DNA of 32,444 nt from Synechococcus sp. GreenBA-s (lineage in GTDB: Bacteria > Cyanobacteriota > Cyanobacteriia > PCC-6307 > Cyanobiaceae), in the NCBI RefSeq assembly GCF_024345855.1, contig NZ_JAGQBX010000027.1, forward strand, positions 1 through 32,444. The letters run 5' to 3'. Position 1 is the first letter of the stretch. Each line of letters opens with the position of its first letter. Position numbers and translations under genes: made by a program. The notes beneath the pieces were generated by a model, which was not told the origin of the DNA, did not search any database, and saw only the letters and a program-made list of their open reading frames with translations. Below, in pieces: positions 2,373-30,662 of this stretch.

Positions 2373-2413
2373 GGTATAGGGTTCAGGATGGGATTTTGTG
2401 CGGTTCCGCCTAC

Positions 2414-2770
2414 ATGAAGCCAGCCACCAGTCGTCGCGCCCACCCGCGCCATGAGGTGCCGAGCATGGTGGGGGCCGTGCGGGTGGAGCTGGTGCTGCCG
2501 CAGGCTCACCACCACGGCACCCTCTGGGATGTGGCCCGTGAGGGCACCTGTGTGCTGATCCACGGCGACCCGGGCCTGGACGTGGGTCAGAGCCTGGAGC
2601 TGCGCTTCCGCCACGACGTGGTGATCGAACCGATCGTCCTGCAGGCTGAGCTGCTCTGGCAGAAGCTCACCGGCGTGAACACCTTCGCCGGCTTCCGCTT
2701 CCTGGCGGGCCCGCTGCCGGAGGGCACCTTTCTCGACGACTACATGCGAATGAACTGGGCCGATCACTGA
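2414..2770 (+). CDS. PilZ domain protein (c-di-GMP receptor)
   Basis: A 118-residue single-domain PilZ protein. The c-di-GMP binding signature is visible: R-A-H-P-R (R8 and R12, the RxxxR motif) and D-V-A-R-E-G (39-44), the D-x-S-x-x-G motif with Ser replaced by Ala. A beta-barrel of alternating hydrophobic residues follows to about residue 100. Such proteins bind c-di-GMP and change activity of a partner such as a motor, pilus or glycosyltransferase; no partner domain is fused here. The ATG at 2414 is preferred over an in-frame TTG at 2396 because the RxxxR motif then lies at the usual distance from the N-terminus. It ends convergently with the Nif11 gene, overlapping by 7 bp. The window also encodes three GGDEF proteins, so a receptor fits the setting. 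Confidence 0.8.
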   Translation: MKPATSRRAHPRHEVPSMVGAVRVELVLPQAHHHGTLWDVAREGTCVLIHGDPGLDVGQSLELRFRHDVVIEPIVLQAELLWQKLTGVNTFAGFRFLAGPLPEGTFLDDYMRMNWADH

Positions 2771-7975: not shown

Positions 7976-8049
7976 GGCTCAGGACTGTGGACGCTGGCCA
8001 TGGACGGCCAATACACTTACCGCAGTGAAGGTAGTGACGGTGGCCTGAG

Positions 8050-9297
8050 GTGGGTGCTTCGCCCTTGCTGTCCCGGATCCGGCGCCCCACCTGGTTCACC
8101 ACGGCCAACCTGGTCCTTGGTCTGTTCCTGCTCTGTCTGCTGCTGCTGCCGGTGGTGCTTCTGGGCACCCTGAGCCGCATGGACCAGTCGCAGATGGAGC
8201 TCCAGGCCAAGGAAATCTCCATCTTGGTCACGGATATCCGCCGCTACTACTCCGACAACGTGGTGCAGCGGATTCAGGAATCGGACGGGAAGGCTGTTCT
8301 CACCGATCGCTACCGCGAGATCCACGGCGGCATCCCCATCCCGGCCACCCTCTCGATCGAGCTGGGTCAGCTGTTCGAGCAGGCCCATGACGACGGTCGG
8401 ATCCAGTACCGCTTTATTTCCGACTATCCCTTCCGGGGCCGGGGCGCACGGCCCCTGGATCGCTTCGAACTTGAGGCCATCAAGCAGTTCCGCAGCAACC
8501 CGAGTCTGCAGCAGTTCACCCAGGTGCGGAACCCCTTCTTCGGGGATGACAGCTACCGGCTGGCGACACCTGTGCTGATGCGCAAGGCCTGCGTGACCTG
8601 CCACAACGCCCATCCCGATTCGCCCAAGCGCGACTGGAAGGTGGGCGATGTGCGCGGCATCCAGGAGATCACCATCAAGGACCTCCACACCGAAGGCGGT
8701 GATGATTTCGCCTATCTGGGGCTCTATCTGGCCCTGGTGGGTCTGACGGCCACCGGAGCGATCCACCTGTTCCGGCGCCAGTCCGCCCGGCTGCAGCGCA
8801 GCAACGGTCAGCTGCTCGAGGCCCGTCACCGGGAGGAGGCGATTCAGCAGCGCCTGCGTGGCAAGGTCGAGGAGCTCTCCCTGCTGGCCTCCGTGGTGGG
8901 CAGTTCCACCGTCGGGGTCACCATTGCAGACATGGACCGGCCGGATACCCCGCTGATCTATGCCAATCAGGCCTTCTACGACCTGACGGGCTTTGACGAG
9001 GCCGAAACACTCGGCCGCAACTGCCGTTTCCTGCGCGGGCCCCTCACGGACCCCGACACCAGCGCCGCCATCCGCCGGGCGATCGCCAAGGGTGAGCCCT
9101 GCACCGTGGAGCTGATCAACTACCGCCGTGACGGCACCCCGTTCTGGAATCGGCTCAACCTCTATCCGGTGGGAGGCTCTCCAGGCCGGCCCAAGTTCTA
9201 CGTTGGCAATCAGACCAGGATCACCGATCCCAGCATGCCGATGCAGGCCGGAACCCCCCAGGGCGAGCCTCCCCCTGCGTCTGCTCCGCAGGGATGA
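8050..9297 (+). CDS. Membrane sensor: c-type haem DUF3365 (Tll0287-like) domain plus LOV domain
   Basis: A 415-residue sensor with four parts. Residues 17-40 form a membrane helix. Residues 41-215 are a periplasmic or lumenal DUF3365 domain like cyanobacterial Tll0287: D-I-R-R-Y-Y-S-D-N-V-V at 62-72 and a covalent haem site C-V-T-C-H (181-185). Residues 220-242 are a second membrane helix, followed by a charged coiled coil. Residues 276-392 are a PAS fold with the LOV signature G-R-N-C-R-F-L-R-G (322-330), where Cys325 would form the flavin adduct under blue light, plus N-Y-R-R-D-G-T-P-F-W-N and Y-V-G-N-Q. The Gln usual after GRNCRFL is Arg here. There is no output domain; the next gene, 8 bp on, is a diguanylate cyclase. 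The GTG at 8050 gives the membrane helix a short N-terminal lead; no strong ribosome-binding site. Confidence 0.88.
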   Translation: MGASPLLSRIRRPTWFTTANLVLGLFLLCLLLLPVVLLGTLSRMDQSQMELQAKEISILVTDIRRYYSDNVVQRIQESDGKAVLTDRYREIHGGIPIPATLSIELGQLFEQAHDDGRIQYRFISDYPFRGRGARPLDRFELEAIKQFRSNPSLQQFTQVRNPFFGDDSYRLATPVLMRKACVTCHNAHPDSPKRDWKVGDVRGIQEITIKDLHTEGGDDFAYLGLYLALVGLTATGAIHLFRRQSARLQRSNGQLLEARHREEAIQQRLRGKVEELSLLASVVGSSTVGVTIADMDRPDTPLIYANQAFYDLTGFDEAETLGRNCRFLRGPLTDPDTSAAIRRAIAKGEPCTVELINYRRDGTPFWNRLNLYPVGGSPGRPKFYVGNQTRITDPSMPMQAGTPQGEPPPASAPQG

Positions 9298-9305
9298 CGA
9301 CCTAG

Positions 9306-10559
9306 ATGCTGCGCTCTGCCCTGGCTGAGGAGGTCAACAGACGGCTGCTGCTTCTGGTGGGGGCCGTCGGGCTGATGGGCAGTGTGCTCACCGGTGTGGC
9401 CGGTGGGTCGCTGGCGGTTCTCCAGTCCAATCGGGATGTGGCCACCCAGGCCGACCAGATCAGCCAGGCGGTGAGCACCATTCTCCAGCTGGAGGCCACC
9501 CTGCCGGAGAAGCAGGCCGTGCTGCAGCTCTACCGCAACCAGCCCTTCTTCCTCCAGAGCGATGTGCTCAATGCGGTGCTCGTCCTCGACGCCAGCGGCC
9601 GCACGATCCTCAGCTCGCGCCAGGCTTTGATCAACCGATCCATTCGGGATCTTCGCAGCACGCCCCTGCTCCGGGATGGCGATACCCAGCGCCGGATCGA
9701 CTGCTTCCTCGGTCAGCTCTCCTCGGCGGCGGCGCCCACCGCTAAGCCCTGTGAGCTGGAGGGTCATCGCTTCCACTGGCCCTGGTCCACCACCCAGATC
9801 GCCCTGCGGGAGGTGCAGCTGTTTCAGTTCGGCATCGATCCGAAGGGGAGCCGATACCTGATCCTGATCAGTCTCGGCACCCAGGCCACCAACAGCGGGG
9901 TGCTGCACCTCGTGCTGCTGATGGTGCTCAGCAGTGCTTTGATCCTGGGCCTGATGCTCTGGAGTCTCACGTGGGCCCTGCGTCGCCAGCTTCTGCCTGG
10001 CCTGCAGCAGCTGGCAGAAACCGATGGCCTCACCACGCTGGCCAATCGCCGCAACTTCATGGACCTGAGCCAGCAGGCCCTGCTGCAGGCCGAGACCTCC
10101 CAGACGTTCCATGTGCTCGCCATCATCGATATCGATCACTTCAAGCGGATCAACGATCAGCATGGCCATCTGGCTGGCGATGCGGTCCTGCGGCAGCTGG
10201 CCGACACCCTGCGGGACGGGCTGCGGGACAGTGACCTCGTGGCGCGCCTTGGGGGTGAGGAGTTCGCCCTGTTGCTGCGCTGCGATGCCGTGATGGCCGA
10301 TGAGGTGCTTGAGCGCCTGCGCAGCAGCGTGGAGTTCAGTGAGTGTGTCTGGGACGATGTCGTGATCCCCGTGACCATCAGCCTTGGCGCTGCTGCCACG
10401 GAACATCTCGGGTTCGATCTCGATTATCTCTACGCCGCCGCGGATGCCTCCCTCTACCGCGCCAAGAACGAGGGGCGTAACTGCATCCGCTGGGCCACGG
10501 CCCGGAAGGGCGATCCGGAGCGCGAGAGCTGGACCTCCAGGCTGATCATCCAGGCCTGA
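9306..10559 (+). CDS. Membrane-bound diguanylate cyclase (GGDEF)
   Basis: A 417-residue enzyme that would make c-di-GMP from two GTP. Helices at about 13-39 and 198-224 enclose a periplasmic sensory region (40-197) of no recognised family, which contains two cysteines, C133 and C149. The cytoplasmic GGDEF domain begins at about D-G-L-T-T-L-A-N-R-R (240-249) and has the metal/GTP segment D-I-D-H-F-K-R-I-N-D, the catalytic G-G-E-E-F (316-320) and a complete inhibitory site R-D-S-D (307-310) five residues before it. It is therefore probably active and feedback-controlled. It starts 8 bp after the haem-LOV sensor gene, so the two are almost surely one operon. It ends convergently with the GGDEF-EAL gene. 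Confidence 0.92.
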   Translation: MLRSALAEEVNRRLLLLVGAVGLMGSVLTGVAGGSLAVLQSNRDVATQADQISQAVSTILQLEATLPEKQAVLQLYRNQPFFLQSDVLNAVLVLDASGRTILSSRQALINRSIRDLRSTPLLRDGDTQRRIDCFLGQLSSAAAPTAKPCELEGHRFHWPWSTTQIALREVQLFQFGIDPKGSRYLILISLGTQATNSGVLHLVLLMVLSSALILGLMLWSLTWALRRQLLPGLQQLAETDGLTTLANRRNFMDLSQQALLQAETSQTFHVLAIIDIDHFKRINDQHGHLAGDAVLRQLADTLRDGLRDSDLVARLGGEEFALLLRCDAVMADEVLERLRSSVEFSECVWDDVVIPVTISLGAAATEHLGFDLDYLYAAADASLYRAKNEGRNCIRWATARKGDPERESWTSRLIIQA

Positions 10560-10595
10560 CGAGCGCAGAATCGGCCTGTCCTGGATCTGGCCTGT

Positions 10596-12368
10596 TCAGT
10601 CGGCGCTGTAGCCCCTTGGCCGTCCGTAGTAATAGCCCTGTCCATGGGTGCAGCCCATCTCCAGCAGGCCGAGGTGTTGCTTTTCTGTCTCGATTCCTTC
10701 GGCAATCACCGTGAAGTTGAGATCCTGCGCCAGCGTGATCATCGACTGGAGCACGGTCTGCTTGCGGCGATCCATCAGGAAATCGGCAGCGAAGCTACGG
10801 TCGATCTTGATGGCATCAATCGGTAGCTTCGCCAGCCATGACATGCTGGAGTAGCCCGTTCCGAAGTCATCGAGATACACGCGTACACCAGCCTGGCGCA
10901 GGTGCTGCAGCTCACGGGTGGTCTGCTCGGGATGATCGATCAGCATGCCTTCGGTCACTTCGACACTGAACAGAACCGGGTCGAGGTCGCGCTCCTCTGC
11001 CTGGGCCAGGAACCAGCTGGCGAAGCCCTCTTGTTTCAGCTGCAGCGGGCTCACGTTGATGGAGGTGCGCAGGGACCGGCTAAGGCGCTGCAGGCGTTTC
11101 ACATGGTCCATGGCCTCCCTGACCACCCAGCGTCCCAGCGGCAGGATCAGACCGGTTCGCTCCGCCAGTGGGATGAATTCCGAGGGGTTCAGGGCCGGCC
11201 GGCCGGGGCTCTGGATCCGAACCAGGCTCTCCTGGCCCACCGTCTGTGCATCGGTAAGGGTCACGATCGGCTGGTAAACCAGTTCCAGTTCGTTGTCCTC
11301 GATGGCCTGCTTGAGCTGTCGCTTGAGAACAATCGTTCGCTTGACCTCCAGGTCGATGGAATCGTTGTAGTGAGAGATCTTCGGATCATTCTTGGCCTTG
11401 GCGTCGTACATCGCCAGGTCGGCCCGCCGCAGCAGTTCATCGATGCCGATCTCAGGATCGGTGGTGCCGGCGATGCCCACACTCATGGAGGGCCGGATCA
11501 GATAGTCCTCGGCGATCCAGGGTGTGGCCAGCCGCTGCTGCAGCCGCATGCCCAGTTCCAGGGCCTCGATTTCATCGAGGCGGCCGCTGGTGAGCACCAC
11601 GAATTCATCGCCACCGAGCCTGGCCAGGGTGTCGCCGGAGCGCAGGCCCTGTTGCAGCCGCTGACCCACCTCCACCAGCAGCTCATCGCCCACATGGTGG
11701 CCGTAGAGATCGTTGATCTCCTTGAATCCGTTGAGATCGCAGAACAGGATCGTCACCTGACCCGCCTGGGCCTCCAGGTCCGCGAGGGCCTCGGCGATGC
11801 GGTTCTGCAGGGCCCGGCGGTTGGGCAGCCCTGTGACCGGGCACTCCACCACCTGGGCCGCCAGGCTGCGCTGCTGCTCCCGCAGCTGGGCATTGCGGGT
11901 CTCGCTCTCGGCGCGGCGCTCGTTGGCCAGATCAGCCCGGCTCTGGAGTTCGGCGTTGGAGAGCAGCAGGCTGATGTCGCGGATGGTGAAGACCAGCGGC
12001 CCGGACGCTTCCCGCTTCACCTCACGCCATTGAATCTCCACGGCCCGCAGGGGGTCCTGGCTCAGCAGGCCCGTCAGCCGTCCGCTCTGCCCTTCGCCGA
12101 CCTTGCCCTGGAGGGCCGTCGCGTCCAGCAGGGGCTGGCCGCTGCAGCTGCGTGGCAGTTGGCTGAAGAGCGGCTCTCCGAGCATCAGCAGCTTGGACCG
12201 CCCGCAGAACGTCACAAAGCCCGCGTTGCACCACAGAACCCGGGCCTCGGCGTCGGTGATCACCAGGCCATCGCCGATGCTGTCCAGGGCCTCCTCCAGC
12301 CAGCCCAGGGTGCGGCGCAGTTCCGCGACCAGCTGGCCTTCCACGGCCTTCAGAGGGGTGCCTGTCAT
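10596..12368 (-). CDS. PAS-GGDEF-EAL dual c-di-GMP enzyme
   Basis: A 590-residue cytoplasmic protein. A PAS domain (about 22-135) begins with L-D-S-I-G-D-G-L-V-I-T-D-A; a coiled coil (140-172) follows; then GGDEF (175-335) with intact G-G-D-E-F (252-256) and inhibitory R-S-G-D (243-246); then EAL (345-585). In the EAL domain the signature is E-S-L (380-382) instead of EAL, keeping the metal-binding Glu; N-V-S-P, E-V-T-E, D-D-F-G-T-G (500-505), K521 and A-E-G-I-E-T-E are present. Both cyclase and phosphodiesterase activities are possible; which dominates cannot be told. The ATG at 12368 overlaps the stop of the upstream PAS gene as ATGA, which fixes the start. Confidence 0.92.
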   Translation of the reverse strand: MTGTPLKAVEGQLVAELRRTLGWLEEALDSIGDGLVITDAEARVLWCNAGFVTFCGRSKLLMLGEPLFSQLPRSCSGQPLLDATALQGKVGEGQSGRLTGLLSQDPLRAVEIQWREVKREASGPLVFTIRDISLLLSNAELQSRADLANERRAESETRNAQLREQQRSLAAQVVECPVTGLPNRRALQNRIAEALADLEAQAGQVTILFCDLNGFKEINDLYGHHVGDELLVEVGQRLQQGLRSGDTLARLGGDEFVVLTSGRLDEIEALELGMRLQQRLATPWIAEDYLIRPSMSVGIAGTTDPEIGIDELLRRADLAMYDAKAKNDPKISHYNDSIDLEVKRTIVLKRQLKQAIEDNELELVYQPIVTLTDAQTVGQESLVRIQSPGRPALNPSEFIPLAERTGLILPLGRWVVREAMDHVKRLQRLSRSLRTSINVSPLQLKQEGFASWFLAQAEERDLDPVLFSVEVTEGMLIDHPEQTTRELQHLRQAGVRVYLDDFGTGYSSMSWLAKLPIDAIKIDRSFAADFLMDRRKQTVLQSMITLAQDLNFTVIAEGIETEKQHLGLLEMGCTHGQGYYYGRPRGYSAD

Positions 12369-12769
12369 GGCACCTGTTCCGCGTCTTCGGGCAGTGGGGT
12401 GAGGGTGGCTCCGAACAGCCACTGGTCGTTCTGCTTCTCCGCCACGATGAAGTGCTCGGAGATCACCCCGCGGCCATCGCTGCAGATGGTCTTGAGGCGC
12501 AGGGGGTGGGCCAGGATCGTGGACTGTTCGGTGGCCTGGAAACGGGAGAAGCCCAGCTGGTGGGACATCTGAAAGGCCTCGGGCAGGATGCGGCTCAGGG
12601 ATGTTCCGGCCAGATCGGCCTGGCTCCAGCCGAAGGCCGCCTGGAAGGCCGGGTTGATGGCCACCACGTTGCCGAGATGATCGGCCAGCACGAAGGGGCG
12701 GTCGCCCGCCTGCAGCGAGGCGATGGAGGGAACGGGCTCAGCCATGCTGCCGGGGGCACCAAGTCCCAT
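12365..12769 (-). CDS. Single PAS-domain protein
   Basis: A 134-residue protein that is nearly all one PAS domain: D-R-P-F-V-L-A-D-H-L-G-N-V-V-A-I-N-P-A-F opening, then F-G-W-S-Q-A-D-L-A-G and a W-L-F-G-A-T-L-T-P-L closing strand. No cofactor-binding motif such as GRNCRFL is visible. It is translationally coupled (ATGA) to the PAS-GGDEF-EAL gene, so it may be a detached sensory or partner subunit of that enzyme. The ATG at 12769 is preferred to the one at 12745 because TGGAG lies 6 bases upstream. It is divergent from sdhB over 69 bp, so the two promoters share a small space. Confidence 0.8.
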   Translation of the reverse strand: MGLGAPGSMAEPVPSIASLQAGDRPFVLADHLGNVVAINPAFQAAFGWSQADLAGTSLSRILPEAFQMSHQLGFSRFQATEQSTILAHPLRLKTICSDGRGVISEHFIVAEKQNDQWLFGATLTPLPEDAEQVP

Positions 12770-13832: not shown

Positions 13833-15356
13833 GTGACCTTCTTTCTCAAGCTCACCGAGGCGATCGCCAGTCGCCAGTCGCTGCTGATCACCGGGCTGGA
13901 TCCCAACCCGGAGATGCTGCACACCTGGAACCGCAGCCGCGGCGGCGGCACCGGCTCGTTCCTCTCCCAGGCGCGGCGCTGGATCAAGGCGGTGATCGAC
14001 GCCACCGCCGACCACGTGTGCGCGGTGAAGCCCAGCCTCGGCTTCTACCAGGCCCTGGGCGCCGTGGGCATTGACCTGCTGCGGGAGGTGCGGGAGCTGG
14101 TGCCGCCCGATCTGCCCCTCATCCTCGATGCCAAACACGCCGACCTCAACTCGGCCTCGGCCCTGGCCCATTACCTGTTCCACGACCTGGGCGTCGATGC
14201 GGTGTCGCTCTCGCCCCTGGCCGGCCAGGACATCGCCGCCCCCTTCCTGCTGCACACCGACCGGGCCGTGGTGGTGACCTGCCACAGCTCCAGTCCGGCG
14301 GCGCGGGTGCTGCAGCACCACCCCGATGAGAACGACCCCTTCTATCTGCGGGTGGTGCGCGAGAGCCAGCTGTGGGCCACGCCGGAGCAGTTGCTGCTGG
14401 AGGTGGGCACCAGCGATCCGCGCATCCTCGAGCGGGTGAGGGCCGCCGCCCCGGAGCACGTGCTGATCCTGCGCAGCCTCTGGGGCCGGGAGGAGCGGCT
14501 GGAGGCCCTGCTGCAGGCGGGGCTCACCAGCGCCGCCGATGGCCTGCTGCTGCCGCTGCCCCAGAACCTGCTGGTGGAGGAGGGGCTGGCGGAGGGGGCG
14601 GCCGCCCTCAAGCGCCAGATCAGCGCCGTGCGCGAGCGGGTGATCGCCGCCCGCAGCCCCGCCGCCGACCGCTGCGACCTGTGGCTGCCCCAGCCGGCCG
14701 CCGCTGCGCCGGCCGCCGAGCCGTCCGCCCCCGAGCCGCCCACCGCTGCCCTTCGCCCCGACCCATCGGCCGATCCCCTGGCCCCGCTGATCGTGGATCT
14801 GTTCGACATCGGCTGCCTGCTGTTCGGCGACTACGTGCAGGCCTCAGGTGCCGTGTTCAGTTATTACATCGACCTGCGCCGCATCATCTCCGATCCCAAC
14901 CTGTTTCACCGGGTGCTGCACACCTACAGCGAGCTGCTGCAGGGGCTGAGCTTCGATCGCATCGCCGGCATCCCCTACGGCTCGCTGCCCACCGCCACCG
15001 GCCTGTCGCTGCAGCTGCACAAGCCGCTGATCTATCCGCGCAAGGAGGTGAAGGCCCATGGCGCCCGTCGCCAGATCGAGGGCGACTTCCGCGAGGGCGA
15101 GACCGTGGTGGTGGTGGACGACATCCTGATCACCGGCGGCAGCGTGCTCGATGGCATCGCCAAGCTCGCCAGCTCGGGTCTGGTGGTGCGCGATGTGGTG
15201 GTGTTCATCGACCACGGCGGCCAGGCCAGGCAGCGCCTGGCCGAGGCTGGCTACCGCACCCACGCGGTGCTCGACATCGGCCGCATCACGGCGGTGCTGC
15301 TGGCTGCCGGGCGGCTCACCCCCGAGCAGGCGGTCCAGCTGGGCGCTCAGGCATGA
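13833..15356 (+). CDS. pyrFE: Bifunctional OMP decarboxylase / orotate phosphoribosyltransferase
   Basis: A 507-residue fusion carrying the last two steps of UMP synthesis in reverse order of the animal enzyme. Residues 1-280 are PyrF: G-L-D-P-N-P-E-M-L (21-29), K-P-S-L-G-F-Y, and the catalytic D-A-K-H-A-D-L (99-105). A Pro/Ala-rich linker spans 286-315. Residues 320-507 are PyrE with the PRPP loop V-V-V-V-D-D-I-L-I-T-G-G-S (425-437) and R-K-E-V-K-A-H-G. The N-terminal PyrF-PyrE order is known in cyanobacteria. The start is GTG at 13833, chosen from family alignment; there is no obvious ribosome-binding site and an in-frame stop lies a little upstream. The 3' end overlaps the convergent GGDEF-EAL gene by 10 bp. 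pyrC lies 4.5 kb downstream on the other strand. Confidence 0.93.
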   Translation: MTFFLKLTEAIASRQSLLITGLDPNPEMLHTWNRSRGGGTGSFLSQARRWIKAVIDATADHVCAVKPSLGFYQALGAVGIDLLREVRELVPPDLPLILDAKHADLNSASALAHYLFHDLGVDAVSLSPLAGQDIAAPFLLHTDRAVVVTCHSSSPAARVLQHHPDENDPFYLRVVRESQLWATPEQLLLEVGTSDPRILERVRAAAPEHVLILRSLWGREERLEALLQAGLTSAADGLLLPLPQNLLVEEGLAEGAAALKRQISAVRERVIAARSPAADRCDLWLPQPAAAAPAAEPSAPEPPTAALRPDPSADPLAPLIVDLFDIGCLLFGDYVQASGAVFSYYIDLRRIISDPNLFHRVLHTYSELLQGLSFDRIAGIPYGSLPTATGLSLQLHKPLIYPRKEVKAHGARRQIEGDFREGETVVVVDDILITGGSVLDGIAKLASSGLVVRDVVVFIDHGGQARQRLAEAGYRTHAVLDIGRITAVLLAAGRLTPEQAVQLGAQA

Positions 15357-17074
15357 GAGTGGTGCCGCCGGCTGCTGGCATAGTCCTCGATCAGCCGTAA
15401 GGTCTCCTTCTGGCCCTGGGGCCGGCCGAACAGGTAGCCCTGGCCGAAGTCGCTGCCCAGCCGCGCAACGATGCGCCGCTGGTCCTCCGTCTCCACGCCT
15501 TCGGCCACCACCTCGAGGCCCAGGGCCTTGGCCAGGGAGATGATCGCCCCGGCGATCATCTCGTCCTCCGGGTTGGTCACCAGGCCATCCACGAAGGAGT
15601 GATCGATCTTGAGCACGCCCACGGGGAAGCGCTTCAGGTAGAGCAGGGAGGAATAGCCCGTTCCGAAGTCGTCGATCGCCAGGCGCACCCCCAGGTCGCG
15701 GAGTCCATTGATGGTCGCCGTCGTCGACTGGATGTCATCGACGAGCATGGTCTCGGTGATCTCCAGGTAGAGGCTGCCGGGGGCCAGTTCGCTGCTGTCC
15801 AGAATTCCCGCGATGCGCTGCTGGAGTCGGGCCTCGTTCAGGGTGCGGGCCGACAGGTTGGAGGAGAGCCGCAGGTCCGCCAGCCCGTCGATCCGTTGCC
15901 AGCGGGCCATGGCCCCGGCGGCCTGGTTGAGCACCTCCAGGTCGATGTGCACGATCACCTCCGACGCTTCCGCCTGGGGGATGAAGGCGCTGGGGGGGAG
16001 CAGTCCCAGCTGGCGATGGCGCCAGCGAGCCAGGGCCTCGAAGCCCACCAGGCTGCGGTCGGAGAGCCGGTAGATCGGCTGGTAGAAGCTCTCGATCTCG
16101 CCGTTCTCAATCGCGTGGCGCAGCTCCCCTTCCAGATAGAGGCGCTCTCTCGCCTCGGCGCGCATCGACTCCTGGAAGATGGCCCAGTGGCCCCTACCGC
16201 GGCTTTTTGCCTGATACATCGCGATGTCGGCGTTCTCCAGCAGCGCATGGGCCTCCTGCCCCGTCTCGCCGAAGGCGATGCCGATGGAGGCGCTGTGGCT
16301 CAGTTCCGTGCCCGCCACCACGATCGGACGGCGGATCGCCTCGATGATGCGCTGGGCCAGATCGGTGGCGGCGCCCACCGTGGCGGTCTGGCTGATCACG
16401 ATGAATTCATCGCCCGACAGCCGTCCCACCAGATCCGACTCCCGCACCGACTCCCGCAGCATGCGCGCCACGTTGATGAGCAGCTGGTCGCCCGCGGCGT
16501 GGCCGTGGGCGTCATTGACGATCTTGAAGCGGTCGATGTCGATGAACAGCACCACCTGCTGCATCTGCCCCTGCGGCTCTCTGGCGAGGGCCTGGTTCAG
16601 GCCCTCGAGCACCAGGCGCCGATTGGGCAGACCGGTGAGCGCATCGTGGGTGGCGTCGTGGTGGGCCTCGTCCCGGGCGTGGCGCTCCGCCGAGATGGCC
16701 CGCAGCAGCCCGATGCTCAGTTCGATGCTGCGGGCCATCGCCCGCAACAGCGACCGTTCCTCCACGTCGAAGGGATCGCCGAGCCTGCCCACGACCAGCT
16801 GCTCTTTACCGATGGTGGCCCAGCAGGTGTGCAGCGTGCCGCTGCGGATCTGAACCTCCGCCGGTCTCGCGTCCGCCAGCTCCACCAGCCGGGCCCCCTC
16901 GCGGGGACTGAGGCCGATGCAGCAGGTGATGCCGTCCCTGTCGAAGATCGCCCCCACTTCGGCATCCACCGCTTCCGTCACCCGGTTCACCGCATTGCGC
17001 AGGTTGTCGGGATCGTCGGTGGAGAAGGCCGAGAGGATCTCGGAGAGCAGGTGCAGCGACCAGGACGTCTCCAT
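15347..17074 (-). CDS. GAF-GGDEF-EAL dual c-di-GMP enzyme
   Basis: A 575-residue cytoplasmic protein. Residues 10-125 look like a GAF domain, with no recognisable cofactor motif but a Cys pair at 51-52. GGDEF (138-300) has S-G-D-E-F (220-224), the first Gly changed to Ser, and an intact inhibitory site R-E-S-D (211-214). EAL (318-565) is fully conserved: E-A-L (346-348), N406, E-I-T-E-T (438-442), D-D-F-G-T-G (468-473), K489 and A-E-G-V-E-T-E. Phosphodiesterase activity is therefore likely; cyclase activity is uncertain, though some SGDEF proteins are active. The ATG shares its first base with the stop of the upstream FIST gene (TGATG), so the two are coupled. Confidence 0.92.
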   Translation of the reverse strand: METSWSLHLLSEILSAFSTDDPDNLRNAVNRVTEAVDAEVGAIFDRDGITCCIGLSPREGARLVELADARPAEVQIRSGTLHTCWATIGKEQLVVGRLGDPFDVEERSLLRAMARSIELSIGLLRAISAERHARDEAHHDATHDALTGLPNRRLVLEGLNQALAREPQGQMQQVVLFIDIDRFKIVNDAHGHAAGDQLLINVARMLRESVRESDLVGRLSGDEFIVISQTATVGAATDLAQRIIEAIRRPIVVAGTELSHSASIGIAFGETGQEAHALLENADIAMYQAKSRGRGHWAIFQESMRAEARERLYLEGELRHAIENGEIESFYQPIYRLSDRSLVGFEALARWRHRQLGLLPPSAFIPQAEASEVIVHIDLEVLNQAAGAMARWQRIDGLADLRLSSNLSARTLNEARLQQRIAGILDSSELAPGSLYLEITETMLVDDIQSTTATINGLRDLGVRLAIDDFGTGYSSLLYLKRFPVGVLKIDHSFVDGLVTNPEDEMIAGAIISLAKALGLEVVAEGVETEDQRRIVARLGSDFGQGYLFGRPQGQKETLRLIEDYASSRRHHSHA

Positions 17075-18270
17075 CAGCTGATGGCCAGGGTCACCAGGGT
17101 CTGGTTGTGGAAGCCCCCGGCGCCCTTGGTGCGGGCGATCTCGCCATAGGTGTAGAAGCCCGCCATGGGAACCCCGCCGCTGGTGGCGGCGATCAGATCG
17201 GTTTCCTCGTGCAGGTTCGACGCGTCGAAGATCGAGCGCCTGGATACGCAGTCGAACAGCAGCAGGCCAACCGGTGGGGCCCCCTCCAGGCCCCCGATCG
17301 CCAGCTTGAACGACTCCTCGGCAGCCTCCAGCACCGAGTCCACGTCCCCTTCGGTGAGGAAGGCCAGGCCGCCCTGGGGCACCTCGGCCACGGTGAGCAG
17401 CTGGCGGTTCAGGAAATCCGCGCCCGACACATGCCGCATCTCGATCTTGTCGCGCCGGCGCACGCCGATCGGATGGCAGGCGGCGAAGGCGGCAAAGGCG
17501 GCGGCATCGTGGCGCACCGGCTCCGGGGGATCGAAGAACTCGAGGTAGACATCCAGGGCAGGCCGGTCGTCCAGGGACGCCAGCACGTTGCCCTTGCTGC
17601 CGGTCACGAGCATGGGGGGACTGGCCGTCTTCCAGCCGTGGCTCACACCGATGCCCAGGGGGGCCTCCGAGCTGATGGCGGCCGCCACCACGGCCTGGGT
17701 CAGCACCCGATCCCCCAGGATCTGGCTGGTCCGTTTCATGGCCAGGTCGTCGCCGGCACAGCCCCCCACGAGGGGCACATCGAGGCTGGCCACGTCGTAG
17801 GCGCCGCGCACCACATCCATCTGGTCGCCGCAGAGCCCATCCGCCAGCAGCAGCAGCACCGTGTGCTCGCGCTGGGGCAGCCGCTCGAGGCAGTAGGCCG
17901 CCTGCGTGGCGGCCTGGCGCAGCCCCTGGCCGTCGCCCTGGCCCATGCCGGTGGCCACGCTGATGCCCTCACCCCCCAGGGCCCAGAGCACCAGGGACTG
18001 GCGCAGGGAGCCCGCGTCGGCGATCTCCCCGGAGGTGGTGCAGCCGATCACGGCGGTCCCGTCCGGGAGCCCGTCCCGCAGACCTGCCGCTACGGCGGCC
18101 AGGTCGTAGTGGGGTGACGCGAGCAACACCACGAGCTTGGGCTGCGTCGGTCCGGCGATCCCCTGGAGCGCTTCGGCGAGGGCGGCCTGGCTGTCGGGGA
18201 GGGTGGAGCTCCCCACCCGGACCCATCGTCTGGGGGAATCCGTGGTGCTGGATCCCATCGACTCTGACAT
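17074..18270 (-). CDS. FIST-domain sensory protein
   Basis: A 398-residue protein with the FIST N-terminal domain (about 40-230: L-V-V-L-L-A-S-P, a V-I-G-C-T-T-S-G-E-I strand, L-V-G-G-C-A-G-D-D) and the FIST C-terminal domain (about 240-390: P-A-L-D-V-Y-L-E-F, L-L-F-D-C-V-S-R-R, closing with G-G-V-P-M-A-G-F-Y-T-Y-G-E-I-A). FIST proteins are soluble ligand sensors, proposed to bind amino acids or similar small molecules, and usually work with signalling partners. Here the partner is the translationally coupled GAF-GGDEF-EAL gene. The start may be the ATG at 18270 or the next at 18258; no ribosome-binding site settles it. Divergent from the antiporter gene over 130 bp. Confidence 0.9.
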   Translation of the reverse strand: MSESMGSSTTDSPRRWVRVGSSTLPDSQAALAEALQGIAGPTQPKLVVLLASPHYDLAAVAAGLRDGLPDGTAVIGCTTSGEIADAGSLRQSLVLWALGGEGISVATGMGQGDGQGLRQAATQAAYCLERLPQREHTVLLLLADGLCGDQMDVVRGAYDVASLDVPLVGGCAGDDLAMKRTSQILGDRVLTQAVVAAAISSEAPLGIGVSHGWKTASPPMLVTGSKGNVLASLDDRPALDVYLEFFDPPEPVRHDAAAFAAFAACHPIGVRRRDKIEMRHVSGADFLNRQLLTVAEVPQGGLAFLTEGDVDSVLEAAEESFKLAIGGLEGAPPVGLLLFDCVSRRSIFDASNLHEETDLIAATSGGVPMAGFYTYGEIARTKGAGGFHNQTLVTLAIS

Positions 18271-29453: not shown

Positions 29454-30088
29454 TCAGAGTGAGCGGGTCTGGCTGGAGATCTGGTCCCACACGCCGCCCT
29501 TGCCCTCGGCTGTCACCGGGCGAAGGCCATTGCCCGTGAAGGCCTTCTGTGCGGCTGGCGTGTAGAGAAACCTGGCGAAGGCTTCCGCCACCTTGCGGGT
29601 GCCCTTCTTGTCCATGGTCCTGTCCACCACGGCGGCCGGCATCTCGGTCAGCACGTTGGGGCTGAAGACCTTGTCGATCGTGATCCATTCGCCGGTGCGC
29701 TTGGCGAGGATCGCTTCGGTCTCCCAGTTGAGCAGCGCGTTGCCCTTGCGGCGCTTCCCATCGGTGTCGGTGGCTTCGCGGGCGTCCTTGGGCAGCCCCT
29801 CGACGTTCCAGCGGGCGCCACCGGAGGTCCTGGGGTTGGCCAGAACGTTGTCCACGTCCTTGTTGTCCAGATCTTTCCAGCCTTGGATCGTCCTGGGATG
29901 GCCTTGGCGGATGAAGGCCACCACGGTGGAGTTGACCGGGGTGGCGTTGTTGGGCAGCCGGCGCTCCCAGCCCTTCTGGATCAGACCGGCCTGTTGCTGA
30001 CGCTGGCGGCGCCGGTGACGCTCAGGGCGGCTGCAGCGAGGCCCGCACCGATACGGCGGTACAGGGTGACTGGAAAGAAACGACGTAA
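29454..30088 (-). pseudogene. sbpA: Sulfate ABC transporter substrate-binding protein, degraded
   Basis: The C-terminal part of a sulfate/thiosulfate-binding protein is clear: A-G-L-I-Q-K-G-W-E-R-R-L-P-N-N-A-T-P-V, N-P-R-T-S-G-G-A-R-W-N, L-L-N-W-E-T-E-A, and A-V-V-D-R-T-M-D-K-K-G-T-R-K-V-A-E-A. Upstream, in another frame, is a signal-peptide-like run (R-R-I-G-A-G-L-A-A-A-A-L-S-V-T-G-A-A, about 30065-30010) with a stop right before it and no start codon. Most of the N-terminal lobe (over 100 residues) is missing between the two, the junction shifts frame, and the helix region expected after G-G-A-R-W-N also seems deleted. A rho-independent terminator survives downstream. It cannot give a working binding protein; the only intact frame (156 residues from 29924) is a C-terminal piece. 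Confidence 0.8.
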
Positions 30089-30113
30089 TCAGACCGCATA
30101 CATGCAGAAACCA

Positions 30114-30152
30114 GGAATTGACGGGCCTGGCACCGCTAGTCCCGTCAATTCC
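30114..30152. promoter_or_regulatory. Perfect 12-bp inverted repeat between the sulfate-binding remnant and rrf2
   Basis: GGAATTGACGGG (30114-30125) and CCCGTCAATTCC (30141-30152) are exact reverse complements with a 15-base spacer. The site lies 79 bp before the Rrf2 start and 26 bp beyond the remnant of the divergent sulfate-binding gene. That is where an autoregulated operator would be expected. It may also act as an RNA hairpin in the leader of rrf2. Confidence 0.6.
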
Positions 30153-30230
30153 ATCGGCAGCTCCGTCGAGCCGCCAGGCCCCGCCGGACGGCTGTCACAA
30201 TCGGCCCAGACCCTGCGCCGGCGCGAGCCC

Positions 30231-30662
30231 GTGGCCTTCAGCTCCAAGACCGAGTACGGCCTGGTGGCCCTGATTGAGCTGGCCGCCATCCATTCCAGTG
30301 GCGCGGTGCTGCAGGTGGCCGAGATCGCGTCCCGCCAGTCGATTCCCGACCGCTACCTGGAGCAGATGCTCACCAGCCTGCGCCGGGGCGGCATCCTGCG
30401 CAGCATCCGCGGTCCCAAAGGCGGGTATCAGCTGGTCAGGCCCCCGGCGGAAGTGCTGGTGTCTGAGGTGGTGAGCTGCCTGGAGGGCGATGCCGTCTCC
30501 CGCGACGGGATCGAGCGCAGGACGCCTGAATTCCAGGTTCTCCATGGTCTGGCCGGCCAATTGGAGCGGGCCCGGCTGGATCTGCTCCAAGGCACCACCC
30601 TGCAGCAGCTGCTGGAGCGGCGCGATGCCCTGTTCCAGGCCCAGGCCATGTACTTCATCTGA
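30231..30662 (+). CDS. Rrf2-family transcriptional regulator
   Basis: A 143-residue DNA-binding protein. The winged-helix part is clear: F-S-S-K-T-E-Y-G-L-V-A-L opening, then S-I-P-D-R-Y-L-E-Q-M-L-T-S-L-R-R-G-G and the wing S-I-R-G-P-K-G-G-Y-Q-L. A helical dimerisation region follows. Iron-sulfur sensing relatives (IscR, NsrR) have three clustered cysteines; here only one Cys is present (S-C-L-E-G-D-A), so it is more like CymR/CysR-type regulators that do not bind a cluster. Neighbouring sulfate-binding remnant suggests a sulfur or cysteine role (inference). The GTG at 30231 gives the family N-terminus; longer frames upstream would include the inverted repeat and lack similarity. Confidence 0.88.
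   Translation: MAFSSKTEYGLVALIELAAIHSSGAVLQVAEIASRQSIPDRYLEQMLTSLRRGGILRSIRGPKGGYQLVRPPAEVLVSEVVSCLEGDAVSRDGIERRTPEFQVLHGLAGQLERARLDLLQGTTLQQLLERRDALFQAQAMYFI

Follow-up and report, generated by a model that had tools for sequence, protein, structure and literature searches.

A predicted receptor with haem c and LOV domains on opposite sides of the membrane, encoded directly before a c-di-GMP enzyme in cyanobacteria

The window analysed here, a whole contig, is a stretch of 32,444 nucleotides from Synechococcus sp. GreenBA-s (assembly GCF_024345855.1, contig NZ_JAGQBX010000027.1), and our subject is a pair of genes within it. The first encodes a membrane protein with a haem c motif and a LOV flavin motif, and the second encodes a membrane diguanylate cyclase. 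Our findings suggest that some cyanobacteria encode, directly before an enzyme of cyclic diguanylate (c-di-GMP) metabolism, one receptor that senses both sides of the membrane. On balance we consider it probable, judging from sequence, that this receptor has haem c outside the cytoplasm and a LOV domain inside it, and that it controls the cyclase, and elsewhere also a phosphodiesterase, in trans. The motifs, the domain architecture, the gene order and the matched inheritance of the genes are observed, and the proposal is built on them.

The sensor gene (8050..9297, plus strand, as are all features of the pair) has a GTG start and encodes 415 amino acids. Open reading frames, Pfam, a structure model and hydropathy together give the order membrane segment, sCache_heme domain (DUF3365/Tll0287-like), membrane segment, helical linker and LOV domain. 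The first membrane segment covers residues 21-39 (8110..8166, by hydropathy). It is followed by the PF11845 Tll0287-like domain, predicted to be extracytoplasmic (residues 47-209, 8188..8676; Pfam E 6.3e-22, 79 bits against a cut-off of 24.1), in which CVTCH at residues 181-185 (8590..8604) is the predicted site of covalent haem c. The second segment spans residues 220-238 (8707..8763, by hydropathy). The two hydrophobic segments thus flank the haem domain, and the balance of lysine and arginine is consistent with both termini being cytoplasmic; in one relative, L117, the second segment falls under the hydropathy threshold used. Residues 239-281 (8764..8892) form the helical linker to the LOV domain, which takes up residues 286 to 391, approximately (8905..9222), and holds GRNCRFL at residues 322-328 (9013..9033) with the predicted flavin-adduct cysteine C325. 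Pfam reports a PAS_9-type match at residues 291-389 (E 1.9e-17), the LOV part matches PDB LOV domains by sequence (E 3e-32), and the same part of the model matches PDB LOV folds with Z about 17 (6rhf_A: Z 17.1, root-mean-square deviation 2.0 over 106 residues). The list of PDB folds for the sensor model is filled by the LOV part, and the Cache part is barely covered in it. Since the mean predicted local distance difference test score (pLDDT) of the model is 72.5, we trust its outlines alone. These include two long helices, 19-77 and 220-281, that flank the haem domain, and the second, which runs from the membrane towards the LOV domain, has low confidence at its end (pLDDT below 50 in residues 269-285). 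No output or enzyme domain was found in the 415 residues with Pfam at E up to 0.01.

Only 8 bp separate the sensor gene from the cyclase gene (9306..10559), which has an ATG start and encodes 417 amino acids arranged, by open reading frame, Pfam and hydropathy, as a membrane segment, an extracytoplasmic domain, a second membrane segment, a helix and a GGDEF domain. The last (residues 237-392, 10014..10481; PF00990, E 9e-40) carries GGEEF and an I-site-like RxxD motif, and the GGDEF part heads the list when the cyclase model is compared with PDB folds. Open reading frames, translation and Pfam thus reproduce what a preliminary description of this DNA had reported, namely that both cofactor motifs lie in one protein that lacks an output domain, with a membrane GGDEF gene 8 bp further on.

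That description also raised the question of whether proteins of this architecture recur across cyanobacteria and whether a GGDEF gene always follows them. We identified 18 full-length haem-LOV proteins in 15 cyanobacterial genomes: the window copy, two paralogues from its own genome (L115, L116), eight from a named collection (L005-L012) and L117-L123. All 18 have CxxCH and all 18 have GxNCRFL with the adduct cysteine. In all 18 loci the next gene encodes a membrane GGDEF protein of one family; for L007, whose open reading frame stops 38 bases before the end of its contig, the rest of the tail, the cyclase and the EAL gene appear to lie on L201, whose genes stand outside our motif and tree sets. 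The sensor and cyclase genes overlap by 4 bp in 6 of 17 loci in a mechanical list of open reading frames. GGEEF is intact in each of the 17 cassette cyclases examined, and by the GG(D/E)EF motif these are predicted diguanylate cyclases. A third gene, of EAL type, is present in 16 of the 17 loci with enough DNA, the exception being the window (the contig of L011 ends too soon). The six third genes scanned with Pfam all have EAL and a weaker GGDEF, and three have a GAF domain. The 15 that were aligned have all lost the GGDEF motif and have kept the E(A/V)L, N, DDFG, K and EG(V/I) stretches, so that a usual cassette appears to consist of a sensor, a cyclase and a phosphodiesterase. The preliminary description named the cyclase as partner; to this a phosphodiesterase-type gene has to be added for a typical locus, though not for the window.

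The genes of the cassette share their inheritance. Distance matrices of the genes correlate with r 0.945 (16 loci), 0.896 (15 loci) and 0.946 (14 loci), and none of 2000 shuffles gave a value as high in any of the three comparisons; L005, whose cyclase is short in the mechanical list (323 amino acids), was omitted wherever the cyclase was used. In each of the three gene trees the paralogous cassettes of the own genome fall the same way, L115 beside L119 and L116 beside L006. In a sample of the order, haem-LOV proteins occur in 14 of 299 genomes and 4 of 35 genera; L011 appears to come from a fifteenth genome. In a sample of the phylum (386 genomes), full-length matches came only from the own genome and G030 among the matches listed, and this search could overlook a distant haem-LOV protein if it was scored in two pieces. 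Of 117 relatives in the named collection 80 were kept. Among these were 72 other Tll0287-like loci, and the LOV motif is absent from all 71 that have an open frame (L050 has none).

We suggest the following mechanism. The receptor, probably a dimer, would hold haem c on its extracytoplasmic Cache domain and flavin on its cytoplasmic LOV domain, with a membrane helix and the helical linker joining the two halves. A haem ligand, be it nitric oxide (NO) or some other, on the outside and blue light on the inside would each shift the pose of the helix, and the enzyme-free receptor would regulate in trans the membrane diguanylate cyclase whose gene comes directly next. In most relatives it would also regulate the phosphodiesterase encoded third, and the window copy may be a reduced version with the cyclase only. 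That two inputs are passed in trans to the cyclase had been proposed before, and the idea gains from the retention of both motifs, from a GGDEF gene always being next, from the correlated distances and from the long membrane-LOV helix in the model, with its low confidence at the end. More tentatively, one receptor may integrate NO or redox state outside, through haem c, with blue light inside, through LOV, and set the cyclase and the phosphodiesterase oppositely. At the membrane of an oxygenic phototroph, blue light coincides with the chemistry of reactive oxygen and nitrogen species. If this further proposal is true, c-di-GMP would signal light combined with nitrosative or redox stress, and the receptor would be a two-sided coincidence detector with its cofactors across one membrane, in which a tail behind the LOV domain is perhaps the contact to the phosphodiesterase.

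Several points weigh against this mechanism. The whole of it is drawn from sequence and model, and the NO input rests on one distant homologue, reported in a preprint. The shuffle test leaves shared species history in, which explains part of the correlation and is addressed by the sorting of the paralogues alone. In two of the 15 third genes aligned, those of L115 and L119, D replaces the last E of EGVE. The window sensor ends 27 residues after the LOV domain and lacks a helical tail, which is 82 to 102 residues long in 16 others and 56 in L007, where the contig break cuts it. Residues 1-234 of the cyclase share merely 26% identity between the window and L116, and the closest full-length relatives of the window cyclase, L183 and L184 (45 and 46% identity; a weak grouping, support 82/76), sit in an operon of ATP-grasp, Alpha-E and transglutaminase genes that has no haem-LOV sensor. 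Given this low identity and these relatives, the origin of the window pair may be other than simple descent from the cassette. In L183, a DUF2126 gene lies behind.

The likely input to the haem domain can be narrowed by its cysteines. C181 and C184 are the sole cysteines of the window domain, and none besides the CxxCH pair is present in 17 of the 18 haem-LOV proteins; the exception, L007, has one 27 residues before CxxCH. The haem domain alone had no match among PDB sequences at E up to 1, and the absence of an axial cysteine was therefore judged not from a crystal structure but from the stand-alone paralogue of the own genome, L001, which has a further cysteine and served as the reference in an alignment that did not include Tll0287. 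A 2026 preprint (PMC12889525) describes a signalling-type DUF3365 protein of P. azotoformans that is without the axial cysteine of Tll0287 and binds NO tightly, and a stand-alone DUF3365/Tll0287 member with the axial cysteine that looks redox-like. By analogy, the haem-LOV proteins may be of the signalling, NO-binding type, and NO is the likeliest haem input since they lack the axial cysteine as the studied NO-binding member does. Of the unproved 'redox or gas' role noted earlier for the haem, gas, and NO in particular, has become the better candidate for signalling-type members (PMC12889525), while the axial cysteine of the redox type is missing. No H-NOX (HNOB) domain was matched in the sensor by Pfam at E up to 0.01. 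The own genome encodes ResB, a cytochrome c maturation protein.

Alternatively, the haem domain could be a redox or electron-transfer unit, as has been proposed for the stand-alone Tll0287 types, and the receptor would then respond to redox conditions in the periplasm or lumen and not to NO. We think this possible, though not probable. It agrees with the redox-like properties of stand-alone members (PMC12889525) and with the place of the window copy beside succinate dehydrogenase genes. Ligation of the haem may also differ from that in the NO-binding member, as His92 is found in 17 of 18 haem-LOV proteins and in none of 71 other family members. It sits ten alignment columns before the cysteine of the stand-alone L001, and our guess is that it may serve as a haem ligand. 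On the other hand, CxxCH supplies the only cysteines of the domain in 17 of 18, a separate stand-alone paralogue that does have a further cysteine is retained in the own genome, and near the other cassettes there is no match to SdhA or SdhB above 45 bits. In addition, the sole signalling-type member that has been assayed binds NO tightly (PMC12889525).

Relatives of the cyclase bear on how the receptor could reach it. In the own genome there are 33 matches to the window cyclase, itself included, and only the two other cassette cyclases extend well beyond the GGDEF half into the sensor half; relatives of residues 1-234 are found in 19 of 299 genomes. We fetched 12 loci of the cyclase family without a haem-LOV gene, L183 and L184 and a further ten (L185-L194). 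In all ten of the latter, two related genes lie directly upstream of the cyclase, which is split into two pieces in L192. In the two loci scanned with Pfam (L185 and L190) both upstream genes encode NMT1-type binding proteins, the scanned range of the second in L185 being about 10 codons too long at its start. Genes for these binding proteins had no match near any of the 17 non-window cassettes. The ten loci are apparently a sensor-cyclase module of their own, predicted to combine binding proteins with a membrane GGDEF protein. The cyclase family mostly follows sensor or binding-protein genes, of one kind or the other, a pattern broken by the two ATP-grasp loci, and this favours signalling from a separate protein. 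Because the family lies elsewhere directly behind two binding-protein genes (10/10), contact between sensor and cyclase may be made at the outer face and not solely through the coiled coils suggested in the preliminary description.

The same loci could be taken to mean that the genes are co-transcribed and the proteins are not in contact, with the cyclase obeying its own extracytoplasmic domain and the haem-LOV protein signalling elsewhere. The occurrence of the cyclase family without a haem-LOV gene, in ten binding-protein loci and two ATP-grasp/Alpha-E/transglutaminase loci, fits this explanation. We consider it unlikely, since the gene order is kept in 18 of 18 loci and inheritance is matched, and the pairing with binding proteins itself suggests that the cyclase family takes signals from proteins encoded upstream. 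Control of the cyclase by the haem-LOV receptor remains the reading that we prefer.

The window copy differs from the others. In the sensor tree it lies outside the group of the other 17 (support 89/80) and has the longest end branch among haem-LOV sensors, and among the 17 loci with enough DNA only this copy lacks the third gene. Tail and third gene are absent together in this copy alone, which, as a single case, is in line with a contact between the tail and the phosphodiesterase. The pair lies between sdhA and sdhB. Of 20 genomes searched, 10 have matching sdhA and sdhB, which are adjacent in four and have a PAS-GGDEF-EAL gene between them in six, and the sensor pair is there in the window only. 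In the window this convergent gene (10596..12422, minus strand; open reading frame and Pfam) has GGDEF and EAL motifs and is an older resident of the gap; its real start is inside the open reading frame, and codons up to 12365 were used. A gene for a single PAS domain (12365..12757, minus strand; Pfam and comparison) is another older resident. The segment that holds both the sensor and the cyclase genes (7976..10595) has no counterpart at this site in the nearest relative, L195, where the homologies to sdhA and to the EAL gene end 81 bp apart, against about 2.6 kb here. We think it most plausible that the pair was inserted later, between sdhA and the EAL gene. Within either of the 201-base stretches at the ends of the segment there are no repeats, and a comparison of stretches from the two ends gave no shared word of 8 to 14 bases.

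The window copy could accordingly be seen as a decaying or newly inserted fragment of little function, the three-gene cassettes elsewhere in the genome being those that work. The missing tail and EAL gene, the longest end branch and the absence from this site in the nearest relative speak for this, but both frames are open and the cofactor, GGEEF and RxxD motifs are present, and we regard decay as decidedly unlikely. Two further ideas about the site were rejected. The window PAS-GGDEF-EAL gene is not the missing third gene in inverted position, as its product falls among other EAL proteins, separately from the cassette set (100/100, at a point where long branches meet), and five relatives have the gene between sdhA and sdhB without the sensor pair. 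Nor does the sdh neighbourhood appear to matter to the function of the cassette, since in the surroundings of the other 17 cassettes nothing matched SdhA or SdhB at more than 45 bits (the stretches of L007 and L011 are short). As a separate observation, the sdhA-sdhB gap, 7976-12757 in the window, holds c-di-GMP genes in 6 of 10 genomes and is closed in 4 of 10.

In the LOV domain, N357, N367 and Q388, which we take to be residues of the flavin-binding pocket, are invariant in 18 of 18 proteins. The canonical LOV motif ends in Q, as GxNCRFLQ. The residue after NCRFL is Q in 11 of 18, R in six (R329 of the window and five of the other 17) and H in one. The LOV flavin motif GRNCRFL noted earlier thus stands as regards the adduct cysteine but does not extend to the full consensus in the window, where R replaces Q, and we limit the claim to a domain of LOV fold with the adduct cysteine. 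These R and H residues might indicate that the domain is no longer a light sensor but a flavin redox sensor or a dimerisation part, which is very improbable given that the adduct cysteine and the pocket residues are invariant across sequences down to 48% identity.

Parts and logic of this system are known from elsewhere; the haem-LOV combination and the conserved cassette appear to be new. H-NOX proteins are soluble and hold haem non-covalently. They have a different fold, whereas our sensor, in which no HNOB domain was matched, combines a LOV domain with haem c that is predicted to lie outside the membrane. Pairs of H-NOX with a cyclase or phosphodiesterase, e.g., SwH-NOX (PMC8846402), share with the proposed system a haem NO sensor that is separate from the c-di-GMP enzyme. 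Members of the sCache_heme/DUF3365/Tll0287 family (PMC12889525) have in common with our proteins the Cache domain with CxxCH between two membrane helices and, in the P. azotoformans protein, no axial cysteine. Inside, the proteins described here have instead a LOV domain without an output domain, and the word LOV is absent from the main text of that paper. SL2 of Synechococcus elongatus, a LOV-GGDEF-EAL protein in which blue light raises phosphodiesterase activity (PMC8846402, PMC5812497), is a cyanobacterial LOV protein that controls c-di-GMP, as our sensor would be. In SL2, LOV is fused to the enzyme, and no haem domain is named in the passages of these papers that describe it; the sensor reported here has no enzyme domain in its chain. 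DgcO and PdeO, the haem pair of E. coli, are an operon-encoded cyclase and phosphodiesterase with gas sensing and form a complex in vitro (PMC8846402). As described there, each enzyme bears its own haem domain, while here the haem would be on a separate sensor.

Among the non-LOV Tll0287-like relatives, eight were scanned with Pfam: five have a class III cyclase, one has GGDEF and two have GGDEF-EAL, one of them with an extra PAS domain. The five sCache_heme-class III nucleotide cyclase fusions (L013, L021, L060, L064 and L067; L064 is from a Vulcanococcus metagenome-assembled genome) have a related haem domain. In these fusions the cyclase is in cis and no LOV motif was found, whereas the haem-LOV proteins have their cyclase in trans. 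Two of them, both cyanobacterial (L064:7713-9290 and L067:7944-9467), have, between the haem domain and the cyclase, a short HNOBA stretch just above the cut-off; HNOBA stands for heme NO binding associated, and this match adds to our preference for NO or a similar ligand.

The preliminary description knew of no studied protein with this exact pair of domains, and we agree as far as the literature searched goes: a full-text search, judged mostly from titles and the starts of abstracts and with subscription journals mostly outside it, gave no report of a haem-LOV pairing. DUF3365 and LOV co-occur in one paper among those listed, on cobalt resistance in Geobacter, whose title and start of abstract do not mention the pairing. 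If one natural receptor does hold haem c on the outside and flavin on the inside, it would allow a test of whether and how cells combine the two inputs. If our proposal is true, the newly described NO-binding Cache family would gain a photosensory member, and a ready-made two-input c-di-GMP switch would be at hand for study.

Other genes in the window and genome also relate to c-di-GMP or to sensing. At 15347-18270 (minus strand), the end of a FIST-domain sensor gene coincides with the start of a GGDEF-EAL gene, and here too an enzyme-free sensor adjoins a c-di-GMP enzyme. The gene at 2396-2770 (plus strand) encodes a PilZ domain and is a possible c-di-GMP receptor; the own genome has nine PilZ matches, eight of them above the cut-off. 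The Rrf2 family includes NO and iron-sulphur sensors, and an Rrf2-type regulator is encoded at 29883-30662 (plus strand), with its domain at residues 120-245 and its real start later in the frame.

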